Below, one piece after another: positions 3,889 to 34,283 of a stretch of 41,692 nucleotides of DNA. The notes below the pieces were generated by a model that saw only the letters and a list, made by a program, of their open reading frames with translations, did no database searches and was not told the DNA's origin. Origin of the DNA: a virus; the IMG/VR virus record IMGVR_UViG_3300044811_000040, positions 1 to 41,692 of that record; one strand, written 5' to 3'. Every line of letters starts with the position of its first letter. Position 1 is the first letter of the stretch. Made by a program: the position numbers and the translations under genes.

Positions 3889-5452
3889 GGCTACCCCTCA
3901 TATCCTCGGCGGTCAGGTACTCCATCCAGGGCCACCCGGTGCTGTCACCCCAGGTCAGCTGTTTCGGCCATTCGCGCTCGTCGCGCGGGCCGCGCCACGT
4001 CCGGAGGCGGACGTGTTTCGGGTCCTTCTCGACCGGCGAGATGCCGTAGCCGAACTCGGGCCAGCGCAGCAGCAGGCTTGAGCCGGCGGGCCGGAGGTCC
4101 CTTTCGTGGATCTGATTGCCGTGCCCGGAATGCGCCTCGATGACCAGGGCGCAGCCGACCGAGTTGCGCGCCCGGTCGAGCACGGAGACGGCCCGTCGCG
4201 CGGGAAGCTCGTCGTTCATGTTGGCGTCGTGGAGCCGGTAGAACGGGCCGATGAACAGCACGTCCGGCTGGTGTGCGGTGACGCGTTCAAGCAGCCAGTC
4301 GGCGTCGGTCTTCGTGGTCAGGTCGAGTCCGTTGGGCTTGTGGATGAGTCGCATCCCGCCGTCCGGAACCCGGTGCTGTGCCCGCACCGAGGCTGCGGCG
4401 AGCGACCGGAACTTGCGCCGGGACTGGCGCTCGGAGTTCTCGCAGTCGATGTAGAGCACCCGCTTGGGCTCGAATGTGAGAGCCCACCGGAACGGGTTGA
4501 TGCCGGCGGCCATGGTGACGGCGAGCTGCCGGGTGAGCATGCTCTTGCCGAGCCCTTCGTGGCCGGTGAGTATGAGTCGGTCGCCGCGTTCGAGCAGGTG
4601 CGGGACGATCCAGTCGAACTCCTCGTCAGCCGCGGCGAGGAACTGCCAGAGGTCGGGATCCAGCTCCGGAGCCGCGTCCGGCTCGCTCTTCCAGGTGGTA
4701 TCCAGCTCGGCCAGGTCGTGACCCTTGGCCAGGTGGTCGGTGACGTCCTTGCACCCTTCGGCGGCCTCGACGATCTCGATGTCGTGAGCTATGCCGGTCA
4801 GGGCTTCGCGGACCTGTCGGGCGTGAGCGCGGCCGGGCTCGTCCTTGTCCGCGACGATCATCACGCTCGCGTCGCGCAGGAAGTCGCTGTACTCCGGTCG
4901 CCACTTGCCGGCTCCGCCCGGGTTGCAGGTGGCGACCAGGCGATGTGCCTCCAGGGTGTGGACGTCCTTCTCGCCCTCGCAGATGAAGACCGGTTGGCCG
5001 CCGTTGACCGCTTCGATGACCTGTGGCAGCCGGTAGAGCACGCGCCGGGTGTCGTCGAGCCGCCACCGGTAGCCGCTCTTCGTGGTGACGTCGGGGACGC
5101 GCTGGCGGAAGTCCTTGTTGGCCGTGCGGCATACCTGGAAGAGCAGTTGCCCCTGTTCGTCGCGGTAGTCGTAGATCGCAATGGCCGGTCCGGCTGGCGT
5201 CCAGGCTTCGCGGTCGTCCGTGCGTTCCTGCGGGTCGCTGAGGTCGGCCCAGGTGAGGTCGAGACGAGCGAGGATGTCGTCGGCGTGGCAACCGGCATGA
5301 CAGTGGAGCACGACGGGCTTGTCGCGACCGGGTCCGATGGCCAGGCTGGCCTTGCCGTCGTCGTGGGCGGGGCAGCGGGCCATGAAGCCGGCCCCGGACT
5401 TCTTGACGGATTCGAGCCGGGGTAGCACCAGTTCGCGCATGGCGTCGGTCAT
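3875..5452 (-). CDS. Bifunctional DNA primase-helicase
   Basis: 525 aa, ATGA overlap with the DnaD-like gene. Visible parts in order: a CHC2-type zinc site (C27, H30, C51, C55) used by primases to read single-stranded DNA; a TOPRIM fold with EGEKD at 159-163 and DKDEPG at 202-207 for primer synthesis; and a RepA/RecA-type ATPase with Walker A GHEGLGKS at 297-304, a possible catalytic acidic segment (YIDCENS, 334-340) and Walker B DVLFIGPFY at 397-405 for DNA unwinding. The arrangement resembles T7 gp4 and the many actinophage primase-helicases. With the neighbouring initiator it should form the replication start complex in the cytoplasm. No motif is missing. Confidence 0.92.
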   Translation of the reverse strand: MTDAMRELVLPRLESVKKSGAGFMARCPAHDDGKASLAIGPGRDKPVVLHCHAGCHADDILARLDLTWADLSDPQERTDDREAWTPAGPAIAIYDYRDEQGQLLFQVCRTANKDFRQRVPDVTTKSGYRWRLDDTRRVLYRLPQVIEAVNGGQPVFICEGEKDVHTLEAHRLVATCNPGGAGKWRPEYSDFLRDASVMIVADKDEPGRAHARQVREALTGIAHDIEIVEAAEGCKDVTDHLAKGHDLAELDTTWKSEPDAAPELDPDLWQFLAAADEEFDWIVPHLLERGDRLILTGHEGLGKSMLTRQLAVTMAAGINPFRWALTFEPKRVLYIDCENSERQSRRKFRSLAAASVRAQHRVPDGGMRLIHKPNGLDLTTKTDADWLLERVTAHQPDVLFIGPFYRLHDANMNDELPARRAVSVLDRARNSVGCALVIEAHSGHGNQIHERDLRPAGSSLLLRWPEFGYGISPVEKDPKHVRLRTWRGPRDEREWPKQLTWGDSTGWPWMEYLTAEDMRGSRDAN

Positions 5453-20326: not shown

Positions 20327-20365
20327 TTGCTCTCGCAATGTTGAGTAGTCCATAGCGTCAGCCGG
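20327..20365 (+). promoter_or_regulatory. Possible leaderless promoter of the AlpA-like gene
   Basis: TTGCTC (20327-20332) and CCATAG/CATAGC (about 20350-20356) are 17-18 bases apart and end 10 bases before the GTG, which lacks a ribosome site. The arrangement is like that before the repressor. Confidence 0.35.
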
Positions 20366-20590
20366 GTGGGTGAGAGGACGTGGCGGCGGCGGGACATCCG
20401 GGTGATGGGCGTGTCCGAGATTGCCCGCAGGCTGGGCAACACCCCGCAGTGGACCAGCCAGCTCGTCAACCGGCGCGAGTTCCCGGAGCCGCTGGCCCGG
20501 CTGGCGATGGGTCAGGTGTGGCTCGCCGACGACGTAGAGGACTGGATCCGGGCGAACCGGCCACACCTCGACGAGCCCGACGAGGCGTAG
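20366..20590 (+). CDS. AlpA/MerR-like small HTH protein (possible excisionase)
   Basis: 74 aa from GTG at 20366; GTG or ATG codons inside (MGVSEIARR at codon 14) could be the true start. IRVMGVSEIARRLGNTPQWTSQLVN is the winged HTH, followed by FPEPLARLAMGQVWLADDVEDWIR, the typical end of AlpA/excisionase-like domains. Such proteins act as recombination directionality factors or transcription activators. The position about 1.7 kb from integrase fits either. Confidence 0.75.
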   Translation: MGERTWRRRDIRVMGVSEIARRLGNTPQWTSQLVNRREFPEPLARLAMGQVWLADDVEDWIRANRPHLDEPDEA

Positions 20591-21596: not shown

Positions 21597-21630
21597 AGCG
21601 GTGCTCCGATCAGGGGTTTAGGTTCGGGAT

Positions 21631-21957
21631 GTGGACATGCAGCCGAGCGGCTCGAACCTCGACCAGCGGCGACGGCTCGCGCTGGCGAAGATCGCCGGGG
21701 CGGGCCAGCGCTGGGCGTTCGGCGACTGGAAGGGCCGGCCCTGCGCCGAAGCCGTCGCCGCCCTGCACGCCGTCACCCGCGACCCGGTGCTGTACGGGCT
21801 GGCACTCGGCGGTGCGATGGCCGACCTCGAGGAGTGGCCACAGAAGGGTCCGGCGCTGGTCGAGCTGTACCGGGCGTGCGGCGCCGACGAGGACGTAGCG
21901 GACCGCAACCTCGAGTGGCAGCGCGAGCGGTCGACGTACACGCTGCCGGAGTGGTGA
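21631..21957 (+). CDS. Plus-strand gene inside the lysis block, unknown
   Basis: 108 aa, GTG at 21631, opposite to its neighbours. TAGGTT at 21619-21624 is a good -10 hexamer whose transcript start would fall on the GTG, and no ribosome site is present, suggesting leaderless expression. The protein is helical (LDQRRRLALAKIAGAGQRW, then AVAALHAVTRDPVLYGLALG) with C-terminal RNLEWQRERS. Third positions are G/C-rich as in real genes here. Isolated phage genes with their own promoter are usually lysogen-expressed morons. Family not recognised. Confidence 0.72.
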   Translation: MDMQPSGSNLDQRRRLALAKIAGAGQRWAFGDWKGRPCAEAVAALHAVTRDPVLYGLALGGAMADLEEWPQKGPALVELYRACGADEDVADRNLEWQRERSTYTLPEW

Positions 21958-30156: not shown

Positions 30157-30882
30157 TCAGGCGGCGAGAGTCAGCTCCGGCCGCCATTCGGAGAGCAGGC
30201 GCGATCCCTTGCTCTGGTTGCACGGCCTGCACGCAGGCATCGTATTTTCGACCGCATCTGTGCCCCCGCGCTTGCGGGGGATGACGTGGTCGACGTGCTC
30301 GTACGGTCCACCGCAATAGGTGCAAAGGAATGGGATGCCAACAGCACGCCAGTGCCTCTCGGCGCGCTTGCGGTAGATCTCAATACTGCACGCCTTGCAG
30401 ACTGGACATAGCCCGTCCGCCTCACCTGGCGCTCTCCAGAACTGGCCGACCGGGATGGGTCCAGCATGGGCCGCCCTGCGCTTACAGAGCTTCAACCCAT
30501 CGGGCCGCAGCCGCATCTGGTCTGCCAGGAGCTGATCCTCGGGCCGAGCATTTCGTTTCGCCCGAACTCGGCGCTGATGCTCCCGGGCGTACTCGCGGCG
30601 ATCCTGCCACCATGCACTCGATTTAGCGGCGTGCCGCTCGCACACAGTTCTGCCAGGTGCAACCGGGTCTAGGCAGGACGAGCACAGTCCTGCCGCCTTC
30701 TGCCTCTCGCGATAGAGCCGCTGATACTGAGCCGCATATTCTGGCGGACGGCGCCGAACGACGCAGGGCTTGCACTCAGCGCGTCGGCCCTGAGCTCCCC
30801 GAGCTTGCCGGTTGAACTCGTCCAACGGCTTGGTTTGCCCACAATCCTTGCAAGTTTTCGCGGGCAAAGTAAGGTCGTGCAT
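30157..30882 (-). CDS. HNH homing-type endonuclease inserted in the tail genes
   Basis: 241 aa from ATG at 30882; AGCAGG is six bases upstream. An in-frame GTG at 30957 would add 25 residues. The catalytic end has CTYCGGPYEHVDHVIPRK followed by NTMPACRPCNQSKGS, a complete HNH. Upstream are three more Cys sites (CKDCGQTKPLDEF, CSSCLDPVAPG, CPVCKAC), as in zinc-rich homing nucleases. Codon use is visibly less GC-rich than in neighbours and the flank is AT-rich, so it appears to be a recent insertion between the major tail and chaperone genes. Confidence 0.88.
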   Translation of the reverse strand: MHDLTLPAKTCKDCGQTKPLDEFNRQARGAQGRRAECKPCVVRRRPPEYAAQYQRLYRERQKAAGLCSSCLDPVAPGRTVCERHAAKSSAWWQDRREYAREHQRRVRAKRNARPEDQLLADQMRLRPDGLKLCKRRAAHAGPIPVGQFWRAPGEADGLCPVCKACSIEIYRKRAERHWRAVGIPFLCTYCGGPYEHVDHVIPRKRGGTDAVENTMPACRPCNQSKGSRLLSEWRPELTLAA

Positions 30883-30962
30883 GTCGTACCTGCTTTCACC
30901 AGGTCGGCCACAGCCCGGGGGTGTTTGCGCACCCGCCGGGCCCCTTTCCGTATCCACTCCAT

Positions 30963-31587: not shown

Positions 31588-31836
31588 TCAGCCCTTCATC
31601 TCGGTGGTCTTCGCCGCCGGGCGGCTGGGCTCCGGCTCGTCGACCGGCTGGCCGAGGATGTCGGCGTGGATGGCGCGGGCTTCCTTCGTGCCGTCGCCGA
31701 CGACGAGGTCCTCCCAGCCGTTGGCCTTCACGGCGTCGGCCTCCACGTACTGGCCCCGGGTGTACGCGAGCACGCCGCCAGCCGGGATGTTCTCTTTCGC
31801 TACGTACCTGGTCACAGTTCCTCCGGACTGGGTCAT
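31588..31836 (-). CDS. Small virion-module protein
   Basis: 82 aa, ATGA overlap with the tail terminator gene. RYVAKENIPAGGVLAYTRGQ and VKANGWEDLVVGDGT resemble a small beta barrel seen in virion accessory proteins, followed by a Pro/Lys-rich tail. Role unknown; it lies just before the major tail gene. Confidence 0.7.
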   Translation of the reverse strand: MTQSGGTVTRYVAKENIPAGGVLAYTRGQYVEADAVKANGWEDLVVGDGTKEARAIHADILGQPVDEPEPSRPAAKTTEMKG

Positions 31837-32225
31837 GCGGGATAGATCGTCAGCGCGCAATGCGCGAGGTAGCGGGGTCGTGCGGTCTGCTCGTCGGGCG
31901 ACCACAGCGGGGCGAGGGTGACCGCGACGCCGGTCACTCGGCCGCCGTCCACGCCGGTGCCGGTCATGTCGTAGATCGCGGCGACGACGGTGCGGATCAG
32001 GATGTTGGCCTGCAGCTGGGTGCCGCCCCACGCCGCGATCTGGTACTCGGGTGTCGCCGTCCACGGCCAGGGCTGGGTGCCGCCGAGACCGGTCACCTGC
32101 AGGCACACCAGGTCCGACTGAAGTTCGGTGCCGACCCGGCCGCCGTGCAGCGGGGACAGGCTGGCGTGGGCGGTCAGGAAGTCGACCAGCTCCTGGTCCA
32201 TGTCCGGCAGCAGCGCGTACGCCAC
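31833..32225 (-). CDS. Tail terminator-like protein
   Basis: 130 aa; GTG at 32225 has an excellent GGAGGTGA four to five bases upstream. The pattern MAYALLPDMDQELVDFLTAH, CLQVTGLGGTQPWPW, YQIAAWGGTQLQANIL is that of minor tail/tail terminator proteins that cap the tube next to the head. Just before it lies the structured non-coding element. Confidence 0.82.
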   Translation of the reverse strand: MAYALLPDMDQELVDFLTAHASLSPLHGGRVGTELQSDLVCLQVTGLGGTQPWPWTATPEYQIAAWGGTQLQANILIRTVVAAIYDMTGTGVDGGRVTGVAVTLAPLWSPDEQTARPRYLAHCALTIYPA

Positions 32226-32261
32226 AGCTCACCTCCGGCATCGCGTATCGTCGAAGGCGTA

Positions 32262-32353
32262 CAGCCGGACTGGGTGACGGCTGCCAAGGGCGGGCTGAAT
32301 ACCCGCTTAGCCCAGTCGGAGGGAGCCGATCCGGAAACGGCGTAGGCTCCCTC
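32262..32353. ncRNA. Candidate structured RNA element with H-type pseudoknot
   Basis: In the 140-base gap between two late genes. Plus-strand order: CAGCCG (32262-67), GACTGGG (32268-74), TGA, CGGCTG (32278-83), then hairpin GCGGG/CCCGC with a 7-base loop (32290-32306), then CCCAGTC (32311-17). CAGCCG pairs with CGGCTG, and its loop GACTGGG pairs with CCCAGTC, giving a pseudoknot of 6 and 7 bp. A further hairpin GAGGGAGCC/GGCTCCCTC (about 32319-32353) has an inner CCG-GAAA-CGG tetraloop. The GNRA loop favours the plus strand, the operon runs on minus; strand is undecided. No known family recognised. Confidence 0.5.
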
Positions 32354-32365
32354 GCCCTGCTTCCG

Positions 32366-32557
32366 CTAGTAGGCGTCGGCCATCGCGAGATTCACCGGTG
32401 GCATGACCTCGACGTCATCGCCGTGGCGCACCGCGGCGTGCTTGGTCACGTAGCCGACCCGCTTGCGGCAGCGCAGACAGACCAGATAAGGGCCGAACGG
32501 GGAATCGACCTGCTCGTAGTGGTCATCCATCCAGGCCGCGAGGTTCGCCGGCGTCAT
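32366..32557 (-). CDS. Small zinc-motif protein in the connector region
   Basis: 63 aa, ATGA overlap with the head closure gene. LVCLRCRKRVGYVTKHAAVRHGDD suggests a Cys-Cys-His-His zinc site. Small CxxC proteins like this often follow head-tail connector genes in actinophages. Role unknown. Confidence 0.75.
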   Translation of the reverse strand: MTPANLAAWMDDHYEQVDSPFGPYLVCLRCRKRVGYVTKHAAVRHGDDVEVMPPVNLAMADAY

Positions 32558-32886
32558 GCCGCCACCGTCGCGATGCGCTTCACGAACACGCGCACGTGGT
32601 GGAGCTGGCCGAGGCGGTAGGAGCGCATCACGTCGCCGTCGACCTCGTACGTGTCACCGGCGAACACGACGCGGTCGGTTGCTTCGATGTCCAGGTCCGG
32701 GCCGCCGAAGATCTTGCCCCGGGTGACGGTCTGCGCCTTGTCGCCCACGACCTCGGTGACCGACTGCGCGGACCAGTGGACGAGGTAGTCGGCGCTGGTC
32801 GCGGCCGACCAGTTCCTGGCCTGGTTGCCGTAGCCGCCGCTGGTGAGCGGGGCGCGCTGGACGGCGATCGGGTCGTGGAGTAGCAA
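32554..32886 (-). CDS. Head closure / head-tail adaptor protein
   Basis: 110 aa from TTG at 32886; no better start is available. DPIAVQRAPLTSGGYGNQ, DYLVHWSAQSVTEVVGDKAQ and DIEATDRVVFAGDTYEVDGDV form the small beta barrel of SPP1 gp16-like connectors, followed by HHVRVFVKRI. It seals the portal and connects to the tail. The distance from the capsid gene (over 5 kb) is unusual. Confidence 0.75.
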   Translation of the reverse strand: MLLHDPIAVQRAPLTSGGYGNQARNWSAATSADYLVHWSAQSVTEVVGDKAQTVTRGKIFGGPDLDIEATDRVVFAGDTYEVDGDVMRSYRLGQLHHVRVFVKRIATVAA

Positions 32887-33557: not shown

Positions 33558-34283
33558 TCAAGGCCTGTACGTGACACCGGCGAGCGGCCGGAGTGTGCGG
33601 CCGGAGTCCGGACGGAGTGTGCGGCCGGAGTTCGGCCGCGGCGTCATCCGGTGGAACCGGGCGGAGCAGACGGCCGCGGCGACGCATCGGGCTGTGGCCG
33701 GGCGAGAGCTACCCAGCTGGCCGCCGGACCCGCTGGCGGTAGCGGCCGCGACGGTCCGGCCGCTACTGGCGACCCGCTTGGTGGCGGTGGCCCGCGCGAT
33801 GCCTGCGGCCGCCGCGGCGGCCACGGCGGCGGTGCGATGGACGCTGGTCGCCCGAGCGGTCGCGGTGGCGACGGCCCTGCCGGTCGCGATACTGATCCGG
33901 GCGGACGTCGAGCGGGCGATGCCGACGGCCACGCACCGGGCCACCGCGGGCCGGGCCGTCCCCGACGTGGCCGCGGCGATCGCAGTAGCTGCGCCGATAG
34001 TGGTGGCGGTGGCGGGAGTCTTCTTGACCGTCGCCGCAACGGCGGTCGCGGCGACGGCGGTGCGCGCCGAGGTGGTCGAGATATGGACGGCGGTGGCGCG
34101 TGCCGAGGTGGCGCCGACGCACCGGGCCGTGATCGCGACGACCTTGACCGTGCTCGCGCGGGCGGTAGCCGCACCAGCCGAGGTGCCGGCCGCAGCAACG
34201 CTGCCCACCGCGGCGACACCGTGGACGAAGCGGCGGCGCGGGAGGATCTGGCGCGGTGGGCGACCGCGGCGCGGCCAGCCCAC
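33558..34283 (-). CDS. Ala/Thr/Arg-rich low-complexity virion protein
   Basis: 241 aa from GTG at 34283, four bases after the previous stop. Residues 24-190 are an irregular repeat of Ala, Thr, Val and Arg (TARCVGATSARATAV, ATGRAVATATARATSV), with ARCV occurring three times. The end has SGRTLRP twice, encoded by a 24-bp repeat, then GVTYRP. It lacks hydrophobic core patterns and may form an extended fibre. Codon frames on the other strand are also open here, so the gene rests on context and ribosome-site spacing. Confidence 0.6.
   Translation of the reverse strand: MGWPRRGRPPRQILPRRRFVHGVAAVGSVAAAGTSAGAATARASTVKVVAITARCVGATSARATAVHISTTSARTAVAATAVAATVKKTPATATTIGAATAIAAATSGTARPAVARCVAVGIARSTSARISIATGRAVATATARATSVHRTAAVAAAAAAGIARATATKRVASSGRTVAAATASGSGGQLGSSRPATARCVAAAVCSARFHRMTPRPNSGRTLRPDSGRTLRPLAGVTYRP
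33590..33637. repeat. 24-bp tandem repeat
   Basis: GGAGTGTGCGGCCGGAGT starts at 33590 and again at 33614; together with six intervening bases it makes a near-perfect 24-bp tandem duplication at the 3' end of the low-complexity gene. Confidence 0.85.

Follow-up and report, generated by a model that had tools for sequence, protein, structure and literature searches.

A putative pseudoknotted small RNA in a moron-like cassette facing the late operon of an actinophage-like virus

The window we analyzed spans an entire IMG/VR contig (IMGVR_UViG_3300044811_000040, 41,692 bases), which, judging from its integrase and repressor genes, is a temperate actinophage-like virus. Its major head protein has its best annotated relatives among Gordonia, Mycobacterium, and Arthrobacter phages. 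The minus strand carries the late genes, tail terminator included, and at the locus described here they are found in the order head closure (Hc1), a 63-amino acid gene with a Zn-ribbon-like CxxC pattern, a 140-nt gap, and the tail terminator. A family search with the 63-amino acid gene gave zero matches; the related contig L004 has this gene too.

31833..32225, minus strand: tail terminator gene (phrog_123, E 3.5e-14)
32226..32365, strand unassigned: cassette slot, between the 63-amino acid Zn-ribbon-like gene and the tail terminator gene
32366..32557, minus strand: 63-amino acid Zn-ribbon-like (CxxC) late gene
32554..32886, minus strand: head closure Hc1 gene (phrog_501, E 6.7e-14)

Elsewhere on the late strand, between the major tail protein and the tail assembly chaperone, there is an HNH endonuclease gene (30157-30957, endonuclease VII-like Zn ribbon plus HNH) that is probably a homing-type insertion. 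Short tandem repeats with 24-bp and 15-bp units are found at 33577-34078, within a low-complexity, Ala/Thr/Val-rich ORF on the minus strand (33558-34283).

The gap holds a compact fold, given here in plus strand coordinates together with the changes seen in L009, the one related contig in which the element recurs.

32262..32267, plus strand: S1 5' strand, CAGCCG, 6 bp with perfect pairing, invariant in L009
32268..32274, plus strand: S2 5' strand, GACTGGG, 7 bp, one A-U pair changed to G-C in L009 (compensatory)
32278..32283, plus strand: S1 3' strand, CGGCTG, pairs with 32262-32267
32288..32308, plus strand: hairpin within the long loop of the pseudoknot, GGGCGGG-CTGAATA-CCCGCTT, stem invariant in L009, one loop change
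32311..32317, plus strand: S2 3' strand, CCCAGTC, pairs with 32268-32274
32319..32353, plus strand: 3' hairpin with a 9-bp stem, a GA/GUA internal loop (bulged-G-like), and a GAAA tetraloop

S1 and S2 abut with 0 nt at their junction, and the other linker is TGA. The inner hairpin is built on GCGGG/CCCGC with a 7-nt loop, to which the plus strand adds two G-U pairs for a total of 7 bp. In the 3' hairpin, GAGGGAGCC (32319-32327) pairs with GGCTCCCTC (32345-32353), and the stem encloses CCG-GAAA-CGG. We looked for a U-tract terminator and found a strong terminal hairpin without a U tract; this hairpin is possibly the 3' end of the RNA. The first-pass annotation had described an H-type pseudoknot of two perfect helices (6 and 7 bp) abutting on one side, an embedded hairpin of 5 bp and 7 loop bases, and a second hairpin with a GNRA tetraloop, and all of these are present as described.

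How often such a fold would arise by chance was estimated in two ways. Among 3000 dinucleotide shuffles of the gap, 30 contained a pseudoknot of equal quality, and 5 had one whose long loop also contained a hairpin. The window itself, cut into 594 half-overlapping tiles of 140 nt, had a pseudoknot of this quality in 9 tiles (1.5%). Based on these counts the pseudoknot alone is uncommon and not unique, so they are suggestive, not decisive. Folding is frequent in GC-rich gaps, and this and the tile frequency would suit an explanation in which the stable pair of hairpins is a mere terminator or spacer that ended an old reverse gene, and the fold has no function. The homologue in L009 argues against this, and we consider the explanation very unlikely. 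There, the 95-nt element recurs in the identical slot with 90.5% identity, compared to 76.9% for the terminator gene and 79.7% for Hc1, and the changes are confined to loops or are compensated. The terminator proteins of the two phages are 58% identical in alignment. The stretch from the element to the start codon is not conserved between the two, nor are the immediate flanks.

Within the pseudoknot domain there are five differences, consisting of one compensated S2 pair and three unpaired bases. No paired change is uncompensated, and 0.5% of random placements do as well. The 3' hairpin keeps its 9-bp stem, GA/GUA loop, and GAAA tetraloop in L009, while the enclosed CCG/CGG is changed to GGC/GCC, a swap that rests on a manual structural alignment since MAFFT misplaces the gap there. 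Neither S1 nor the main 3' stem has any change, so the covariation between these two members is confined to a single double change in S2 plus three pairs in the tetraloop stem (if structure-aligned), and no pair is broken. Covariation in homologues had been proposed with the original description as a check on the structure, and the structure survives it. With the L009 homologue the fold is clearly beyond chance, and sequence comparison of the two phages supports both the fold and its slot.

A short peptide gene on the plus strand is another conceivable explanation: an open frame with a GTG start spans the pseudoknot in both phages. The predicted peptides have 23 amino acids in the window and 15 in L009, their C-termini and stop differ, and the 14 shared codons have one second-position and two third-position changes, which is not a coding pattern. 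No ribosome site was seen for this frame, and we regard a peptide gene as extremely improbable.

The RNA is most likely encoded on the plus strand, opposite the late genes. Both the GAAA tetraloop, which L009 keeps despite the swap of its three closing pairs, and the bulged-G-like GA/GUA loop read properly on the plus strand only, and the two G-U pairs of the inner hairpin are valid only there. Folding energy is similar on both strands (z -2.6 and -3.3) and does not decide between them. Putative signals of transcription are also found in this orientation.

32246..32251, plus strand: TATCGT, -10-like box of the putative reverse promoter, just upstream of the element
32258..32259, plus strand: predicted transcription start, 6-7 nt past the -10 box

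A -35 box was looked for at this promoter and not found. Every cassette phage compared (11 of 11) has the motif TANNNT at a distance of 15-23 nt from the start codon of the terminator, within a window of about 10 positions, while the background of the motif on the antisense strand is 0.00073 per position; the phages are related, so these counts are not independent, while the cassette contents mostly are. None of the four phages checked that have no gap has the motif. On the antisense strand of the compared loci there are only five instances of TANNNT followed by 6 nt and ATG, every one of them in the slot. At the spacing of the predicted start, the relatives have either the ATG of a leaderless gene (5/5) or the beginning of a closing helix, whose first base is at precisely that spacing in L004 and L019. 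A reverse promoter at the TANNNT box, adjoining the ribosome site of the terminator gene, is strongly suggested by these patterns.

The strand matters for another explanation, that the element is a structure in the late (minus strand) mRNA which acts in cis, tuning translation of the tail terminator or slowing ribosomes between the head and tail genes. In its favor, the Shine-Dalgarno sequence of the terminator comes directly after the element, and the minus strand folds well too. We nevertheless consider this explanation quite unlikely, because the GNRA loop, the GA/GUA motif, and the two G-U pairs belong to the plus strand alone, the reverse promoter box is conserved, and most of the relatives lack the element or have a replacement.

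The element does not belong to any family that we could find. With the 4227 families of Rfam, the window had zero matches at the gathering threshold and the element had zero matches at E values up to 5. BLASTN of the element against phage and plasmid collections found no homologue, and scans of the collections for the motif, in a strict and in a relaxed form, gave L009 and otherwise only L012 and L056-L060, which lack the fold once their sequences are read. Among 20 loci and 15 whole contigs searched with a covariance model, only the window and L009 matched, and a tRNA and tmRNA search detected none. We also compared the arrangement with that of HDV-like ribozymes, where a P1/P2 pseudoknot encloses a P3 hairpin and is followed by P4, and we rejected this candidate: the plus strand has only TGA at the place of P3, and the Rfam search of the element at E up to 5 had no match to such a ribozyme. 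ToxI-type RNAs, which are part of type III toxin-antitoxin systems, also have an H-type pseudoknot as their core, and the window RNA is like them in this respect. Unlike ToxI, the element is single-copy without tandem repeats and there is no ToxN-like gene at the locus, where the neighbors checked were the head closure, tail terminator, and Zn-ribbon-like genes, so an antitoxin of this type was also rejected.

We gathered 15 distinct related contigs, by relatives of the terminator and then by relatives of Hc1, and found that 12 of the 16 phages (the window plus these contigs) have an insert in the slot. The pseudoknot RNA is in two of them, the window and L009. Four others have different sequences with no long ORF, each closed by a terminal helix of 10-12 bp that begins at the expected transcription start or at most 2 nt away, and a terminal helix of this kind was reached in 4-32 of 20000 shuffles. 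We predict that these are structured RNAs, differing from one another, on the antisense strand of the slot:

L004, 4880-5000, antisense strand of the slot: predicted structured RNA
L005, 4780-4990, antisense strand of the slot: predicted structured RNA
L019, 4350-4524, antisense strand of the slot: predicted structured RNA
L032, 4320-4440, antisense strand of the slot: predicted structured RNA

None of the four matches an Rfam family above its gathering score; weak Rfam matches to CC3513 and hya in L005 and L019 are far below the gathering scores. A 56-nt match of the L005 RNA within an Eggerthella phage endolysin gene (E 1e-3) was judged to be chance, and a tRNA-like T-arm that we saw by eye in L005 had no support from ARAGORN.

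In L002, L003, L007, L029, and L020, the slot has a reverse ORF with its ATG exactly 6 nt past TANNNT, which suggests a leaderless reverse gene. The reverse gene of L007 and L029 encodes a conserved protein (dN 0.39, dS 0.87) of 88-92 amino acids with a basic tail, MLYYAPAGTS...MHRAYRRKTRRR, and the L007 copy has no match in Pfam or PHROG. The L020 frame, at 31 amino acids, is weak. The L010 slot (about 4770-4930, antisense) does not have the TANNNT-N6-ATG arrangement and contains a 54-amino acid ORF of single-span membrane type with its own ribosome site; small membrane proteins like this one are candidates for superinfection exclusion. There is no gap in L006, L008, L033, and L036, and Nesbitt, Rowa, AbbeyMikolon, and PFR1, all of them cultured phages, have these genes tightly packed and lack the insert.

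Since the relatives place other small RNAs or leaderless small proteins at the identical promoter position, the cargo of the slot is interchangeable, and the RNA is probably cargo that the dormant virus can do without, not a control of virion-making. The first-pass annotation had offered four roles for the element, and the comparison of slots together with the strand signals favors one of them, a small RNA. Control of the head-to-tail ratio in cis is disfavored, because the element is missing in four metagenomic relatives and four cultured phages, other relatives have unrelated RNAs or reverse-strand proteins in its place, and the strand signals are antisense to late mRNA. We found no positive evidence for a ribozyme or a packaging signal. 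The late mRNA strand that the annotation implied is probably wrong, with the GNRA loop on the plus strand and the late genes on the minus strand, so of its interpretation the small RNA stands, most likely on the strand opposite to the late mRNA.

By its anatomy the cassette looks like a moron. Prophage morons are accessory loci with their own promoter and are often antisense to lytic genes (PMC7067206). Like them, the insert is dispensable, located between morphogenesis genes in the opposite orientation, equipped with its own putative promoter, and missing in relatives. Morons as commonly described carry protein genes; here, at least two phages, and probably six, have a structured RNA as the cargo, and RNA and protein are interchangeable behind the promoter at one fixed position.

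One precedent is STnc6030 of the Salmonella prophage BTP1, a superinfection-exclusion antisense RNA over late genes (PMC7067206). The window RNA would similarly be a prophage RNA antisense to late structural genes and apart from the late operon, its strand being assigned from the promoter box, the GNRA loop, and the GA/GUA motif. STnc6030 is predicted to have 786 nt and works via sequence complementary to late genes (PMC7067206), whereas the window RNA is compact at about 95 nt and is in an intergenic cassette whose slot is shared with protein genes. Small non-coding RNAs are also described in the mycobacteriophages L5, D29, and StarStuff (PMC5712189). In the portions of that study that we draw on, the RNAs highlighted are abundantly transcribed from Pleft during lytic growth, at the right end of the genome, or are in the intergenic region 63-64, and neither a pseudoknot family nor a slot among late genes is mentioned (PMC5712189).

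The BTP1 precedent also suits antisense control in cis, where reverse transcription or the RNA itself would damp leaky expression of late (head) genes in the prophage and the structure would mainly stabilize the transcript. Transcription of the unit would run against the late operon and continue into Hc1 and the head genes. We think this explanation is unlikely, given that some relatives have this operon and lack the cassette, that cassette content ranges from RNA to unrelated protein, and that a plain antisense RNA has no need of a conserved pseudoknot or GNRA hairpin.

What we consider fairly probable is that the gap is an interchangeable moron cassette, reverse to the late operon, which carries a pseudoknotted small RNA. 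It would be a self-contained transcription unit inserted between the head-closure and tail-terminator genes and facing the late operon. The TANNNT promoter by the terminator gene's ribosome site would start an RNA of about 95 nt near 32258, and this RNA would fold into the H-type pseudoknot with its inner hairpin and then the 3' hairpin with its bulged-G-like loop and GNRA tetraloop, at which the RNA may end. The prophage would most likely make this RNA, and the RNA would act in trans as a superinfection-exclusion RNA or as a decoy for a host factor or defence; we infer lysogenic expression and the role in trans from moron biology and the STnc6030 precedent.

More tentatively, the locus, with its putative reverse promoter, may be a slot dedicated to the exchange of effectors, and these may be small proteins or compact RNAs of several unrelated architectures, such as the pseudoknot type and closed multi-branch types. 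If so, the slot would be a store of RNA-based factors for superinfection exclusion or anti-defence. Prophage accessory genes are usually sought as protein genes, and the suggestion here that structured RNAs and proteins replace one another as equivalent cargo implies that prophage RNA effectors may be systematically missed. Others could be searched for in the gap before the tail terminator, on the opposite strand, at TANNNT plus 6 nt.

Away from the slot, the plus strand ORFs at 20353-20590 and 21619-21957 of the window each begin with GTG a short distance past a TANNNT box. Genes of the lysogeny region in this phage may therefore often have leaderless starts.
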